Assembly (NCBI RefSeq): GCF_000271665.2
Contig: NZ_CP010978.1
Coordinates: 1,334,501 to 1,398,500 of the forward strand
Length of the DNA: 64,000 nucleotides
From: Pelosinus fermentans JBW45
Lineage (GTDB): Bacteria > Bacillota > Negativicutes > DSM-13327
Direction of reading: 5' to 3'
Made by a program: the position numbers and the translations under genes. Each line of letters opens with the position of its first letter. The stretch's first letter is position 1. Below, one piece after another: positions 4,977 through 30,305 of the stretch. Below the pieces are notes generated by a model, which saw nothing but the letters and a program-made list of their open reading frames with translations, did not search any database and was not told the DNA's origin.

Positions 4977-6038
4977 TTAGAGGGTAGGCTGCAAGGTCTT
5001 GTGAATTGCTTTTTTTCCAAGCCACCACCGCAGCAGGGGAATCCCGAGAAGCAGCATGGATAATAAGCGAAATAATTGGTAGGCAACAACCAGTGAAACA
5101 TCAGCATGAACCGTCATGGCTGTGAGTCCCATTTCTGTTATGCCACCGGGGGCGGTACTGATAAAAGCGGTTAGAAAAGGGATTCCATAGAGCTTCACCA
5201 GCAAATAATCAATCCCTAATGAACCTGCAATGACAAAAATTACTCCTCCAAAGCTATAGGAGACAATGGATTTCCAATTTGTTAATCCATCGAAAGTGAT
5301 ATCGGCTCCCATGCGTATTCCAATGAATATCTGTGCTAATGCTGTGATGTATTGGGGAAGATGAGGAGCGTTATAGCCTTGAATGATAAGGGCAATGGTT
5401 CCAATAACAGGTCCCATAAGATAAGGGGTGGGAATTCTGATGACTCTGGCTATGAAGGCCGAAATAATACATACAATTCCAAAGGGCAGAAATTGTTCAA
5501 ATTGTAAAGAGGCAGTAGATGCAAAAAGCGGCAGAGGGGTAGAATTGTTTGTAAGACCATAAATTGCCAGCATTGGTACAATAAATACAACGGTTAGTAC
5601 CCTGGTTATTTGCATAAGAGTAACGACAGCAACATCGGCACCATCAATTTCCTCACAAATGACAGCCATTTGGGAAAGACCGCCGGGTATACTGCCAACC
5701 AAACCATTTACCATCCCCACACCTGTAAAGCGGCAAGTAAACCATCCTGCCAAAAGGCTCAGCGTCATAGTAGTGAAGGTGGTTAATAGCATACCGGGGA
5801 GCTGGTCTAAAATTTGTTGACCTACCTGAAGGGTAAAAGGACTGCCCATAGCATAGCCAAGAAAAATTAGACCTGTATTGCGTATAGATTTTGGCCAATG
5901 GATGGGTTTCTTTCTAACTGTCTTCCAAAGTAAGGTGGTCACCAAGGGACCGATGGTCCAAGGAAGAGGAATATGGGCACTAAAAAAGATGATTCCTCCT
6001 ATACAAGATAAGAAGAAAATTACAATATTATTTTTCAT
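4977..6038 (-). CDS. AbrB-family membrane protein (ammonia-monooxygenase-like duplicated permease)
   Basis: A 353-residue protein with about ten hydrophobic segments and an internal duplication: GSIPGGLSQMAVICEE in the first half and STAPGGITEMGLTAMT in the second. This duplicated PGG motif is the hallmark of the AbrB/COG3180 family, whose transport substrate is poorly known. The start is taken at ATG 6038, seated behind AAAGGCG; the in-frame TTG at 6053 lacks a site. A perfect 28-bp palindrome lies 25 bases upstream of this ATG and is the likely operator. Confidence 0.85.
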   Translation of the reverse strand: MKNNIVIFFLSCIGGIIFFSAHIPLPWTIGPLVTTLLWKTVRKKPIHWPKSIRNTGLIFLGYAMGSPFTLQVGQQILDQLPGMLLTTFTTMTLSLLAGWFTCRFTGVGMVNGLVGSIPGGLSQMAVICEEIDGADVAVVTLMQITRVLTVVFIVPMLAIYGLTNNSTPLPLFASTASLQFEQFLPFGIVCIISAFIARVIRIPTPYLMGPVIGTIALIIQGYNAPHLPQYITALAQIFIGIRMGADITFDGLTNWKSIVSYSFGGVIFVIAGSLGIDYLLVKLYGIPFLTAFISTAPGGITEMGLTAMTVHADVSLVVAYQLFRLLSMLLLGIPLLRWWLGKKAIHKTLQPTL

Positions 6039-6062
6039 GTTTCGCCTTTCCAATCGATTTCA

Positions 6063-6090
6063 TTGTAAATATCCAGCTGGATATTTACAA
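6063..6090. promoter_or_regulatory. Perfect 28-bp palindrome, probable operator of the AbrB-type permease gene
   Basis: TTGTAAATATCCAG is followed without a spacer by its exact complement. A perfect dyad without a loop fits a dimeric repressor site better than an RNA hairpin. It ends 25 bases upstream of ATG 6038 on the minus strand. Confidence 0.65.
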
Positions 6091-6100
6091 AAAAGTAATA

Positions 6101-6166
6101 TAAATATAAAATACCATGAGATAGTTGCGCGGTCAACTATCTCATGGTATTTTATATTTATTTTTT
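6101..6166. terminator. 27-bp perfect hairpin with A and T flanks
   Basis: The arms 6101-6127 and 6134-6160 are exact complements around the loop CGCGGT, followed by TTTTTT on the plus strand and preceded by an A run (T run on the minus strand). It can act as a terminator for the minus-strand secreted-protein gene at 6487-7257 before the permease promoter. Confidence 0.6.
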
Positions 6167-6177
6167 GCTGTATTTTT

Positions 6178-6393
6178 TCTCAGTGTTCTCTGCGCCTCTG
6201 CGGTTCGGTTTACTTTCTATGTTTTGAAGGACGCCTAGCGTTTTTCTTATAAGCATAGAAAGTATAAGTTTTTAGGTGTGGAAAAGGTGAGATATTATGA
6301 ACCACAAAGGCACAATGCCGCTAACGCGGCACACAAAGGAGTGCACGAAAAAATAAATAAAAACCCTTTGTGTCCTTTGCGTCTTTGTGGTTC
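6178..6393. repeat. Dispersed palindromic repeats: one half unit and one full copy
   Basis: 6178-6210 is a half unit of the CTCTGCGCCTCTGCGGTT subfamily. 6299-6393 is a complete copy of the CACAAAGG subfamily, almost identical to 285-376. The two are joined by a short AT-rich stretch with the AAGTTTTTAGG flank seen beside other copies. With the two hairpins this accounts for the whole 6039-6486 interval. Confidence 0.8.
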
Positions 6394-6486
6394 GATTTAT
6401 TTTGCATGTTTTATAGGACGCGCAGCGTTTTTTCTTACAGCGGGAAGAATCGTGCTAATATTGCAAGTCCCAAAAGTACGGCCTAG

Positions 6487-7257
6487 TTAAATCCCTTGCC
6501 AAAGAGTAGCTAAATTGTCAGTATTATATTTTTTTACAGATTTTTCTTTAAGTGCGGCAAGAGTATCTGCACTATATTGAATGGGTTGATTAGACAAAGA
6601 TCCTGATTCCGTTAATTTCCAGCCGCTTGAAGTTTGGGATAGCGTAAAGGTCATAGCCGCTAAATCCGTATTGCCATGAAGGGTCATTCCATTTACAAGT
6701 TCTCGGGTATAGTAACAAGAACCAGTAATAGAAGTAGAATCAGCATCAGAAATATCAACATATAAAAGGGTAAAATGATCATATTTCGTTACCCAATTAT
6801 CAAACTGTTCTTTTGTAAGCTGCCTGGACACAATATCTATTTCCTGCAATTTTTCTAAGTCTTTTGTATTAAAGGAATCCAACCTTTTTAGTAATAGATG
6901 AATGGCTTTACGCTCTTCAGGGGCAATGGATGATGTAATTTTTGCTACGTTAGAGAGTTCTACAATTTTTCCCCATTGGAAGGTACTCATGGTATTTGCC
7001 TTCAGCTTTGCGTCAAATTGAATGATGAGCCCGTCTTTCTTAAATTTACGCGGCAAATTGATTGGCTGATATTTTACGCCATCGTCTCCGATTATGCCGT
7101 AAAAGCCTTGAATATTAGGGGCGGTTACTTGACCAGTCATATGAAAGGTGGTATTGACCTGAGAGGGATCTGCTGCCACAGCTAAGGCAGTATGAGAAAA
7201 TACAGTAAGCATCAGAATTGAAAACAAACATAAGCATCTTTTCGTAATTGTATTCAT
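6487..7257 (-). CDS. Secreted protein of unknown function
   Basis: 256 residues with a clear signal peptide (KR, hydrophobic run, cleavage probably after ALAVA near residue 29). The first part after cleavage (about 35-115) has the pattern GxYGIIGDDGVKYQPxNLPxxFKxDGL, common in small secreted beta-barrel domains of anaerobes. The second part (about 120-256) looks like an NTF2-like domain with SCYYTRELVNGM and LSQTSSGWKLTESG. No enzyme motif is visible. It is convergent with nothing on its right and followed by a hairpin. A periplasmic role in this diderm cell is likely; function is not known. Confidence 0.7.
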   Translation of the reverse strand: MNTITKRCLCLFSILMLTVFSHTALAVAADPSQVNTTFHMTGQVTAPNIQGFYGIIGDDGVKYQPINLPRKFKKDGLIIQFDAKLKANTMSTFQWGKIVELSNVAKITSSIAPEERKAIHLLLKRLDSFNTKDLEKLQEIDIVSRQLTKEQFDNWVTKYDHFTLLYVDISDADSTSITGSCYYTRELVNGMTLHGNTDLAAMTFTLSQTSSGWKLTESGSLSNQPIQYSADTLAALKEKSVKKYNTDNLATLWQGI

Positions 7258-7360
7258 AAAGCACTCCTTGATTTTAAGTTTTATTGATGAATCGGGTACA
7301 TAGTATTAGGTAAAAAGGCAATGGACCGCAAAAGTCATGAAGAAATAAAGGAATGATTTC

Positions 7361-27023: not shown

Positions 27024-28763
27024 ATGAGGAGAGGGAAAGCTGCCTTATTATTAACTAGCTGGAAAATTGCCAGATCCTATTGGTTTTCAGAGGAAAAGTG
27101 GTCTGCTTGGGGATTACTCTTTACCGTTATTACCTTGAATCTGGGAATTGTATATATGTTAGTTTTAATCAATACCTGGCAAGTTAATTTTTATGAGGTT
27201 ATACAAAGTCATAATTATCAAGGATTTATGGAGTCCATTGGCCATTATTGTATATTGGCAGCTTGTTTGGTTGTGGTACGAGGATATCAAATTTATACGC
27301 GAATGATGCTTCACATTGGATGGCGACGATGGATGACAGAACGATACTTATCCGATTGGCTGACTCACAAGACCTACTATTTATTACAGCTTTCTCAAGA
27401 GCATGATATGGATAATCCTGATCAGCGTATTAGCGAAGATATCGAGATGTTTGTTTGGCTTACTCTTAGGCTCTCTTTAGATCTGTTGCAAGATTTAGTA
27501 ACTATTTTGTCGTTTATTGTGATTTTGTGGAATTTATCAGGTATAATTACCCTATCCATTGCTGGATATGAAATCCCTATACAAGGTTATTTGGTCTGGG
27601 TAGCTATGTTATATGCAATGGGGGGGACTTATTGGACAGTTAAGACAGGGCGTCCTTTGGTTAAATTGGATTTTGACCAGCAACGTTATGAAGCTGATTT
27701 TCGTTTTAGCCTAATGAGATTAAGAGAAAATGCAGAAAGTATTGCTTTATATGGCGGCGAAAGACAAGAAAAATGGAGTTTTCATCAAGGTTTCGGCAAA
27801 ATTATCGCTACCTATCAAAAGATTATGAAGGTTCGCAGGTCACTAACTTGGTTAACCTCTTCCTATACGCAAGTTTCATCCATTTTTGCCTCAATTGCAG
27901 CAGCACCGCGTTACTTTACCAGTCAGATTCATTTAGGGCAAATGTTTCAGATTGTAGATGCCTATCGACATGTACAAACAGGATTCTCCTTTGTTGTCGA
28001 TAGCTTTACACTTCTTGCCCAGTGGCGGGCAGTCGTCAATCGTCTTAATAATTTCTTAGTAAGTATGGAAATGGTTCGCGGTCAATTGCCTAGAGCGTAC
28101 AAATTAAATATTTCCCGGGAAAACTCCGCTGTATACTCTGCATGCAATCTTCAGATATTCTTACCAGATGGGTCTCTTCTAATAAAAGACTTATCCTTAT
28201 CCATAAAACCCGCTGACAAATTATTAATTATGGGAGAATCAGGCTGCGGGAAAAGTACATTATTACGTACTTTTGCTGGTATTTGGCCCTATGCTTCTGG
28301 CAAGATCATAGTGCCTGATAAACAAAAAGTAATGTTTCTTCCTCAAAAGTCGTATCTGCCTTGCAGTTCTTTACGGGAGACTCTAGTCTATCCAGATATC
28401 GTCAAGGAAGACAAGGATAGAGTGATGCGAGAGATTCTAGTCATGTGTAAGCTAGCCCATTTAACAGATAAATTACATATCGTAGCTGATTGGGGTCATA
28501 CTCTTTCCTTAGGAGAACAGCAAAGGGTTGCTTTTGCCAGAGTGCTATTGCAAAAACCAAATTGGCTGTTTTTAGATGAAGCTACATCTGCTTTAGATGA
28601 GGGTACAGAGCAAGCTATGTATAAAATGATCGTTAGTACTATGTCAAGTGCAGCCATTATAAGCGTGGGCCATCGCAGCACTCTTATGAATTATCATACG
28701 GCAAAGATGGAGTTAAATAGTATGGGAAGTTGCGTAGTCACAAAAATCCATAAATGTAAATGA
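27024..28763 (+). CDS. SbmA/YddA-type ABC transporter (fused membrane and ATPase domains)
   Basis: 579 residues. The N-terminal 330 residues form an ABC_membrane_2/SbmA-BacA-like domain with about six helices, including the conserved block LTHKTYYLLQLSQEHDMDNPDQRISED (residues about 110-140; WLTHKTYY, NPDQRI). The C-terminal ATPase has Walker A GESGCGKST, signature LSLGEQQRV and Walker B WLFLDEATSALDEGT. COG4178 proteins move peptides, cobalamin or long-chain acyl compounds. AAGGAGGTGATAG is an excellent ribosome site. It stands alone between a repeat and a terminator; substrate unknown. Confidence 0.87.
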   Translation: MRRGKAALLLTSWKIARSYWFSEEKWSAWGLLFTVITLNLGIVYMLVLINTWQVNFYEVIQSHNYQGFMESIGHYCILAACLVVVRGYQIYTRMMLHIGWRRWMTERYLSDWLTHKTYYLLQLSQEHDMDNPDQRISEDIEMFVWLTLRLSLDLLQDLVTILSFIVILWNLSGIITLSIAGYEIPIQGYLVWVAMLYAMGGTYWTVKTGRPLVKLDFDQQRYEADFRFSLMRLRENAESIALYGGERQEKWSFHQGFGKIIATYQKIMKVRRSLTWLTSSYTQVSSIFASIAAAPRYFTSQIHLGQMFQIVDAYRHVQTGFSFVVDSFTLLAQWRAVVNRLNNFLVSMEMVRGQLPRAYKLNISRENSAVYSACNLQIFLPDGSLLIKDLSLSIKPADKLLIMGESGCGKSTLLRTFAGIWPYASGKIIVPDKQKVMFLPQKSYLPCSSLRETLVYPDIVKEDKDRVMREILVMCKLAHLTDKLHIVADWGHTLSLGEQQRVAFARVLLQKPNWLFLDEATSALDEGTEQAMYKMIVSTMSSAAIISVGHRSTLMNYHTAKMELNSMGSCVVTKIHKCK

Positions 28764-28819: not shown

Positions 28820-28837
28820 AAACGTCATTTATTCATA

Positions 28838-28876
28838 CTATTGATGTAACACAATATACTTGTGTTACGTCAATAG
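28838..28876 (-). repeat. Left recombination site of the inversion element
   Basis: A 39-bp dyad: CTATTGATGTAACACAA, five-base spacer TATAC, then TTGTGTTACGTCAATAG. The arms are complementary at 16 of 17 positions. The spacer is the reverse complement of the right site's GTATA, which fixes the opposite orientation. Confidence 0.7.
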
Positions 28877-28920
28877 CAAGATAAGGAGCATCATCTGCCT
28901 CAATGCTAGAAATGTTATTT

Positions 28921-28949
28921 TTGAAAATTAAAGTAACATATTGTATACT
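28921..28949 (+). promoter_or_regulatory. Promoter of the tyrosine recombinase gene
   Basis: TTGAAA and TATACT are separated by 17 bp. The spacer contains AAAGTAACATATT (28931-28943), which matches a recombinase half-site (compare AATGTAACATAA of the right site), so the recombinase may repress itself. Confidence 0.6.
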
Positions 28950-28979
28950 GAAAAACAGATAAGAAACATGATATAGGAC

Positions 28980-29537
28980 GTGATTGAAATCGAATATGTA
29001 GAACCAATACGATGCAAAACACAGATCAATCAAATTAAATTTTATTTAAAGAATAAGAATTTACGAGATTACTTACTTTTTGTCTTAGGTATTAATAGCG
29101 GATTACGCATATCGGATTTATTATTATTAACAGTAGCCGATGTAAAAGACAAAGATCGCATCTTGCTCAGAGAGAAGAAAACAGGAAAAAGTAAGGATTT
29201 TCCTCTGTCTGATACATGTAAAAAGGCCATAGATGAATATCTTAAAACGATACAAATTAGTGATGGTTGTCTATTTAAAAGCAAAAAAGGTAATTGGCCA
29301 ATTACCAGGGTGCAAGCATATCGAATTATTAATAGTGCAGCACGAGAAATCGGTATTAATGATGCGATTGGCACCCATACACTGCGTAAAACTTTTGGCT
29401 ATTGGGCGCACAAAAAAGGAGTAGATATCACAAAAATCCAAAAACTGCTAAATCATTCCGCACCAAATGTAACATTAGCTTATATCGGAATTACAAAAGA
29501 TGAATTAGATGACGTTTATATCAATTTAAACTTATAA
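28980..29537 (+). CDS. Small tyrosine recombinase (FimB/XerD-like catalytic domain)
   Basis: 185 residues, mostly the catalytic domain of phage-integrase-family recombinases. All catalytic residues are visible: Arg43 in SGLRISDLL, Lys in KKTGKSKDF, His133-x-x-Arg136 in THTLRKTFG, His159 in LLNHSAP and the nucleophile Tyr168 in LAYIGI. The core-binding domain of full XerC/D is reduced to about 30 residues, as in FimB/FimE-type inversion enzymes. GTG 28980 is the first usable start; the ribosome site (AGGAC) is weak, which may keep the enzyme scarce. It lies between two inverted sites that are its likely substrates. Confidence 0.85.
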   Translation: MIEIEYVEPIRCKTQINQIKFYLKNKNLRDYLLFVLGINSGLRISDLLLLTVADVKDKDRILLREKKTGKSKDFPLSDTCKKAIDEYLKTIQISDGCLFKSKKGNWPITRVQAYRIINSAAREIGINDAIGTHTLRKTFGYWAHKKGVDITKIQKLLNHSAPNVTLAYIGITKDELDDVYINLNL

Positions 29538-29638
29538 AAAGCTATGATTTATGAATTTTTTAGCTAGATAAATCTTAATTCCTAGAAAAAAAAGGATAAT
29601 TAGAAAAAATGACGTAATATGTTTTATTATGGAATTTT

Positions 29639-29677
29639 CTAGTTGACGTAACACAAGTATATTATGTTACATTGCTA
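29639..29677 (+). repeat. Right recombination site of the inversion element
   Basis: TTGACGTAACACAA, spacer GTATA, then TTATGTTACATTG. The inner nine-base arms pair with one mismatch. It ends 14 bases before the AGGAGG of the HD-GYP gene, so inversion changes what is joined to that gene. A further half-site TGACGTAATATG starts at 29610. Confidence 0.7.
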
Positions 29678-29702
29678 GTGCTGCCTTTTGAGGAGGAATG
29701 AT

Positions 29703-30305
29703 ATGCTTCAAAATTCAATTATAGATGACGAAATCATATTTAAATATCCTTGTAACACTCGATTAGAAATAACAAATTATCTATTAACCTTAATTCATCA
29801 GCATGATGTAGATACTGCTAAGCACTCTTGTAATGTAGCAAATATAGCTGTTCGCTTTGCCAAAAGACTCAATCTTTCCTCTCAAATGATTAAAGATATA
29901 TCCTTTGCTGCATTGCTTCATGATATTGGAAAAATAAAAATTCCACGACAAATTTTAAACAAACCTGAAAAATTAACTAAAAGTGAATTTGAGATTATGC
30001 AAAGACATTCTCAATATGGTTTTGTAATTTTAAACCAAATACATCCATTGCAAGACATAGCAGAAGCTGTTTGCTGTCATCATGAAAAATTTGATGGAAA
30101 TGGTTATCCCAGTGGCAAAGCTGGAGATGAAATACCATTGATTGCACAAATCTTAAGTATTACGGATGTATATGAAGCTCTTACTTCAGACCGGACTTAT
30201 CGTAAAGCAATGACCCAAAAAGAAGCTTTTCAAGTGATTAATAGCGGCAGGGAAACTCATTTTAATTCAGTATTGGTTAATATGTTCTTATTAGGAGGGT
30301 GCTAG
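29703..30305 (+). CDS. HD-GYP domain protein, predicted c-di-GMP phosphodiesterase
   Basis: 200 residues, essentially a single HD-GYP domain. Metal ligands and motif residues are intact: HDVDTAKHSCNVANIA, the HD pair in LLHDIGKIKIP, and HHEKFDGNGYPSG with the GYP signature, then ITDVYEALTSDRTYR. Such domains hydrolyse cyclic di-GMP. There is no receiver or sensor domain. The start is ATG 29703 with AGGAGG seven bases upstream; a longer reading from TTG 29688 would include the ribosome site. No terminator separates it from the recombinase gene, so both may share a transcript in the present orientation. Confidence 0.85.
   Translation: MLQNSIIDDEIIFKYPCNTRLEITNYLLTLIHQHDVDTAKHSCNVANIAVRFAKRLNLSSQMIKDISFAALLHDIGKIKIPRQILNKPEKLTKSEFEIMQRHSQYGFVILNQIHPLQDIAEAVCCHHEKFDGNGYPSGKAGDEIPLIAQILSITDVYEALTSDRTYRKAMTQKEAFQVINSGRETHFNSVLVNMFLLGGC

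Follow-up and report, generated by a model that had tools for sequence, protein, structure and literature searches.

The window, the 64,000-nucleotide stretch of the Pelosinus fermentans JBW45 genome analysed here, contains what sequence comparison identifies as part of a real and conserved DNA inversion system, in which a short tyrosine recombinase is encoded between an inverted pair of recombination sites. In the scheme set out here, which we regard as highly probable as a whole, the recombinase would flip its own 0.8-kb segment and act in trans on additional pairs of 23-bp sites, two in this genome and as many as three in Pelosinus relatives, and a pair-specific 5-bp spacer would confine recombination to the pair, so that the chromosome is not scrambled. 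In the ON orientation, an outward promoter near the segment end would read through the site into the gene for a chemoreceptor (MCP) or an HD-GYP protein. With the segment OFF, the promoter would face away, and the other end of the segment and the gene flank would form a long hairpin that either prevents read-through or hides the ribosome-binding site. The predicted outcome is that individual cells differ, reversibly, in their chemoreceptors and in a putative c-di-GMP phosphodiesterase. The sites, their pairing, the identity of their spacers, the differences in orientation, the motif and the hairpins are directly visible in the sequences compared.

The general site is GTAACANAA-N5-TTNTGTTAC, with a 23-bp core, and the features of the window and of the other two pairs are listed in the table. 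A repeat search of the window pairs positions 28837-28873 with 29643-29679 (inverted repeat I1, 37 nt, 89%) and recovers the left dyad with spacer TATAC that had been noted in a preliminary description (I2, 28833-28854 with 28860-28881, 5-nt gap). The 30-nt, one-mismatch alignment of the left site with the reverse complement of the right site, also claimed there, can be read off the sequence. Exactly six perfect sites are present in the 5,380,816-bp single-contig genome, forming three inverted pairs, and the reversed-pattern control gave zero matches at zero mismatches in the same 5.38 Mb. As the genome holds only these six matches, all in inverted pairs, and the control is empty, the site pattern is not due to chance.

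Features of the inversion switch in the window, of the related site pairs and of draft contig ends at sites
Feature	Location	Strand or orientation	Details
ABC transporter gene	27024..28763	+	conserved outer neighbour; not a predicted target
Left recombination site	28846..28868	+	core GTAACACAA-TATAC-TTGTGTTAC; dyad spans 28833-28881
Predicted invertible segment	28869..29647		779 bp; flipped in G002; both junctions in P. propionicus
Recombinase promoter, sigma-70-like	28921..28949	+	TTGAAA-17-TATACT, inside segment; 10/12 consensus match
Half-site over recombinase -10	28933..28948	+	GTAACATATTGTATAC; repeat I14; in several relatives
Short tyrosine recombinase	28980..29537	+	185 aa, GTG start; PF00589 9.8e-27
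Outward promoter-like motif	29592..29620	+	AAGGAT-17-TAATAT (contains GGAT-N15-CGTA); faces HD-GYP
Right recombination site	29648..29670	-	core on + strand GTAACACAAGTATATTATGTTAC, also written GTAACACAA-GTATA-TTATGTTAC; spacer TATAC on - strand; inverted relative to left site
Stand-alone HD-GYP protein, putative c-di-GMP phosphodiesterase	29703..30305	+	predicted target; HD_5 1e-42
Site pair, genome	1262377/1262602	inverted	spacer TTTGC, 225 bp apart, before MCP gene
Site pair, genome (window)	1363346/1364148	inverted	spacer TATAC
Site pair, genome	4600186/4600447	inverted	spacer TAGAA, 261 bp apart, before MCP gene
MCP gene beside one short pair	L053 5219-6907		CHASE3/HAMP/MCPsignal
MCP gene beside other short pair	L052 2418-4451		dCache/HAMP/MCPsignal
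Core-edge contig ends	G001 C43; G004 C9, C36, C51, C53; G005 C10, C18; G007 C359; G017 C29, C68; G034 C7, C16, C21; G153 C6

The enclosed gene product belongs to the tyrosine recombinase (phage integrase) superfamily, with a score of 94.2 bits against a cut-off of 27.1 for PF00589 (Phage_integrase), and consists of the catalytic domain only. Its fold class is settled by sequence alone. The full catalytic set attributed earlier to this 185-aa enzyme is indeed present, and R43, K67, H133, R136, H159 and Y168 are at least 97% conserved in 60 homologues. The top NCBIfam matches are XerA and XerD, and the relatives in the PDB are XerC-like, XerA and XerD proteins. The protein does not score as an equivalog of XerC, XerD or XerA (XerA 103.6 of 220 bits, XerD 80.4 of 329.6), and alignment with the Xer models covers the C-terminal half only. 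Nor does it score as a FimB/FimE-type invertase (PRK09870 and PRK09871; 53.8 and 59.8 bits against cut-offs of 221 and 222). Proteins encoded by the window genome are 96-98% identical in P. propionicus and another Pelosinus genome, and the recombinase promoter is kept in Pelosinus relatives. The half-site over its -10 element may possibly permit autorepression of the recombinase. A plain sigma-70 scan was uninformative, with six promoter-like matches against 8.2 expected, and was set aside except for the conserved recombinase promoter; no terminators came up.

The switch had been described as self-contained, which does not hold, as further invertible pairs of the same sites lie elsewhere in the genome and precede chemoreceptor genes. 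In close relatives, a fourth pair is found before an HD-GYP and MCP gene pair (L056, L059). The 5-bp spacers are equal in inverted orientation in all 35 of the 35 pairs found across the class, which include 18 different spacers, and random spacer pairing gives a mean of 2.3 matches and a maximum of 11; trans pairs were searched with an N5 pattern, in which spacer identity was no criterion, and the best-match search used for the recombinase pairs could slightly favour equal spacers. Tabulated pairs of any one genome all have different spacers, which in this respect may be likened to addresses. In a putative master-invertase network, one enzyme would invert several loci; the observations that bear on this are a site family common to several loci and its co-occurrence with the recombinase. 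A single recombinase would catalyse inversion of all pairs, with phenotypic variation as the presumed consequence, and trans action, like the double lock described below, is a well-supported prediction.

A second promoter-like motif lies at the far end of the segment. The aligned motif has a -35 element AAGGAW, 17-bp spacing and a -10 element TAWTAT, and GGAW-N14..16-CGTA occurs in 35 of 43 segments (a set that includes some loci fetched twice), compared with a mean of 2.5 and a maximum of 8 in shuffles. The motif is present in all 15 trans segments and most recombinase segments, outward-facing and 38-61 bp from one end; all but one face out of the nearer end and one is internal. Four strict matches were found genome-wide, two of them within invertible segments. 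Besides one probable chance match, the sole other good match is at L130 (G000:C1:1832912-1832939, - strand). Sigma-D promoters (TAAA-N15-GCCGATAA), which would be expected before chemotaxis genes, gave no consistent match in the segments, and AAGGAW-17-TAWTAT emerged instead. If the motif acts as a promoter, orientation would be expected to alter target-gene expression through the direction of the motif and the hairpin, and the deposited orientation of the window is predicted to be ON for the HD-GYP gene. The earlier proposal that the whole gene flips together with its promoter and so switches its own surroundings is retained in part. The recombinase promoter does lie inside the segment, but for that very reason the recombinase is expected to be transcribed in either orientation, and it is the second, outward motif that would serve the HD-GYP gene in one orientation only.

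In many cases the sequence just outside the site next to the target gene can pair with the segment end that lies farther away, which is the end without the promoter. Palindromic extension scores of at least 10 were obtained for 14 of 24 pairs and for none of 528 mismatched pairings. When the gene-proximal site was folded in both the ON and OFF configurations, the OFF hairpin was more stable in 18 of 21, with a mean difference of -13 kcal/mol (p = 1.9e-4). Switch c of G001 and the recombinase segments of G026 and G039 are deposited ON, and their arms meet only after in silico inversion; if these loci did not invert, complementarity over such a distance would be difficult to account for. Some of the hairpins are terminator-like in the OFF state, with a U-tract at the end, and at switch d of G001 a 31-bp stem also covers the Shine-Dalgarno sequence. 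The hairpin would be expected to terminate transcription, and a promoter-plus-terminator double lock is probable where the motif faces away from the gene; if true, it would account for a tight OFF state. The G002 orthologue of the window copy has a good OFF hairpin (-16.1 against -9.1 kcal/mol ON). In the window copy the OFF hairpin is weaker than the ON form (-7.3 against -11.1 kcal/mol), and at this locus the terminator part of the double lock therefore lacks support.

Nearly all switch neighbours are MCP or HD-GYP genes. The HD-GYP gene in the window has a Shine-Dalgarno sequence, GAGGAGG, at 29690-29696, and its ATG start was taken in place of the TTG at 29688 given by the ORF caller. This neighbour is conserved across Pelosinus. 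The self-switch adjoins an HD-GYP gene in Pelosinus, G013, G026, G028, G039 and G311, an MCP gene or HD-GYP and MCP genes in G103, G152, G282, G298, G302, G309, G310, G314, G315 and G317, and the gene for a soluble MCP with CheW in G020 and G318. In G017 and G034 it has no MCP or HD-GYP neighbour and adjoins a sigma-70-like gene and a DegS-type kinase gene; the G017 segment lacks the outward motif, and the assembly of G034 does not contain the segment. At L153, a transposase-like ORF (6036-7316, possibly IS110-type as judged by eye) lies between the self-switch and its MCP neighbour.

Close paralogues of the recombinase (~70% identical; L094, L162, L172, L173, L174, L175 and L176) have a single site ~120-145 bp upstream, and several are on contigs with replication- or partition-like genes. 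In this they resemble a plasmid dimer-resolution system, which suggests a possible ancestor. The switch itself could have arisen from a plasmid resolvase as a mobile, self-flipping and selfish cassette, with effects on neighbours as by-products, and the occurrence of these paralogues ~140 bp from a single site, several of them near such genes, is consistent with that origin. However, synteny and the outward promoter-like motif are conserved, the former across Pelosinus, the hairpin arms are common to the chromosomal flanks, and MCP and HD-GYP neighbours recur in many families, making a selfish cassette unlikely. A variant single site, GTTACACAATTTTATTATGTTAC, is present at 4428-4450 of L095 (G001 C108), on a contig with a ParA-like gene. 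Two distant homologues (~40%) have perfect upstream palindromes, with 30-bp arms and no gap at L104 (4748-4807) and 22-bp arms and a 3-bp gap at L105 (4756-4802), possibly a different class of site.

Of 380 genomes in the class, 33 have the exact site, 36 the recombinase (counted at E up to 1e-30) and 26 both (Fisher p = 7e-26); the counts include related genomes, so p-values are optimistic. The reversed pattern was found in one genome among the 380. Some two dozen recombinase genes lie between inverted sites that depart from the 23-bp pattern at 0-2 positions, and the best chance site matches of homologues outside this group have at least 5 mismatches. The self-flanked recombinases fall on one side of a branch with support 88/97, where the bootstrap is rough and there is one long outgroup branch. 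Seven genomes have sites and no recognised recombinase, and in four of these (G004, G005, G034 and G296) contigs break at a site or within 4 bases of one. Catalysis by a housekeeping Xer recombinase or another enzyme, with the inversion real and the enclosed recombinase incidental, would fit the Xer-like family of the recombinase and the presence of XerC/D-like proteins in the same genomes. However, the sites co-occur with the recombinase, hundreds of other Negativicutes have no sites though Xer-type matches are common, and the recombinase is flanked by its own sites in one clade only; such catalysis is quite unlikely. Two Sporomusa-like genomes carry a truncated recombinase between both retained sites (L166 4756-5196 and L167 4864-5178), and the switches there may be locked, or another recombinase copy may serve them. 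At 19 loci of Clostridia homologues, self-flanking by a GTAACANAA-N5-TTNTGTTAC pair was not found. The Clostridia homologue at L133 lies between perfect 21-bp inverted repeats, unrelated in sequence to these sites, at -143 and +212 around the gene, and is perhaps an independent self-flipping switch.

Inversion is indicated by differences in orientation, taken from assemblies and not from reads. Comparison of related genomes, suggested in the preliminary description, reveals that G002 (L055) has the same outer flanks as the window (ABC transporter and HD-GYP genes) with the recombinase segment reversed between them. Both alternative junctions are present in one assembly of P. propionicus DSM 13327 (L034/L061, NZ_FOTS01000050), where a 102-bp inner flank in L061 is joined to the ABC-side flank and, past a 10-N scaffold gap, to the HD-GYP-side flank. 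Between the two junctions there is a one-base difference in the outer arm, which fits exchange toward the spacer. With species differing in orientation, two junctions in one assembly and the same design in about two dozen Negativicutes, the original reading of an inversion switch with an enclosed recombinase is well supported. For MCP switch c, G001 and G003 have the ON orientation and G000 and G002 the OFF orientation. Fourteen draft contig ends coincide precisely with the 23-bp core edge, a pattern that mixed populations would produce; sequencing-blocking hairpins might in principle make contig ends, yet these are at the core edge and not at the hairpin edge. The recombinase segment is absent from the G004, G005 and G034 assemblies, presumably because the assembler dropped a short middle piece when both orientations were present. 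The direct pairs that seemed to lie 9-16 kb apart in G001 are an artefact, produced by a contig end and by runs of N that fill scaffold gaps. A static role for the sites without inversion, as operators, terminators or hairpins bound by the recombinase as a regulator, is very unlikely: they are strong palindromes, several followed by U-tracts, and a half-site covers the recombinase promoter, but orientation varies between species within fixed outer flanks, two junctions occur in one assembly, and asymmetric spacers match in every pair in inverted orientation only, a match that a plain operator does not need.

More broadly, it seems fairly likely that a self-flipping recombinase of single origin runs address-coded double locks on chemoreceptor and HD-GYP genes in motile Negativicutes, and that its own flip is also regulated. 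Most discussion of phase variation concerns surface antigens and interaction with hosts, and the predicted targets here are sensors and a signalling enzyme. If true, the system would diversify behaviour (taxis and c-di-GMP) and not appearance, and isogenic cells would answer the same surroundings differently. The spacer code would offer a direct test of one enzyme acting on many sites without chromosome rearrangement, and the spacers would give a small enzyme a naturally occurring set of orthogonal recombination addresses. Separate publications already describe inversion switches, recombinases enclosed in their segments, terminators of the OFF state, and invertible sites close to MCP or HD genes. 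A literature search, with most subscription journals outside its scope, found no report of these elements combined and no paper on phase variation in Pelosinus, and novelty is therefore provisional.

FimB/FimE-type invertases are tyrosine recombinases of ~200 aa without an N-terminal domain (NCBIfam model lengths 198-200) that flip a promoter and are encoded outside the segment. The Pelosinus enzyme is likewise a short tyrosine recombinase, but its gene is inside the segment and its invertase scores are below the cut-off. In Salmonella, the gene for the serine recombinase Hin lies inside its own inverted segment (H segment), and the promoter flips with it to operate one switch. The recombinase studied here is also within the flipped segment but is a tyrosine enzyme with a predicted trans network. 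Passages of one survey cite Hin as an inversion system and describe an 844-bp segment enclosing a recombinase in Providencia stuartii (PMC5903667), so recombinases enclosed in this way have precedents elsewhere. The same passages report read-based inversion signatures near MCP, HD-type phosphodiesterase and chemotaxis genes in Clostridia (PLoS Genet 2018, PMC5903667); unlike the Pelosinus sites, these are not tied there to a common site family, a spacer code or a particular recombinase. They also describe the Bacteroides master invertase Mpi, one enzyme for at least thirteen regions (PMC5903667). One enzyme for many switches is predicted here too, but Mpi is a serine recombinase with other targets. 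The tyrosine recombinase RecV of Clostridioides difficile (cwpV, flagellar switch) inverts several short segments according to the passages cited (PMC2784873, PMC5903667, PMC9286219), some of them before c-di-GMP phosphodiesterases; pdcB and pdcC are phase-variable phosphodiesterases of this kind in C. difficile (PMC9286219), and an intrinsic terminator has been proposed for the OFF orientation of cwpV (PMC2784873). The Pelosinus system resembles RecV switches in its several short segments, some before putative c-di-GMP phosphodiesterases, and in a predicted OFF-state terminator like that proposed for cwpV. Unlike cwpV, where the promoter is outside the inverted segment, the Pelosinus segments also hold a promoter-like motif inside, and unlike RecV, a distinction drawn from description, the recombinase and its sites form one unit within the segment.
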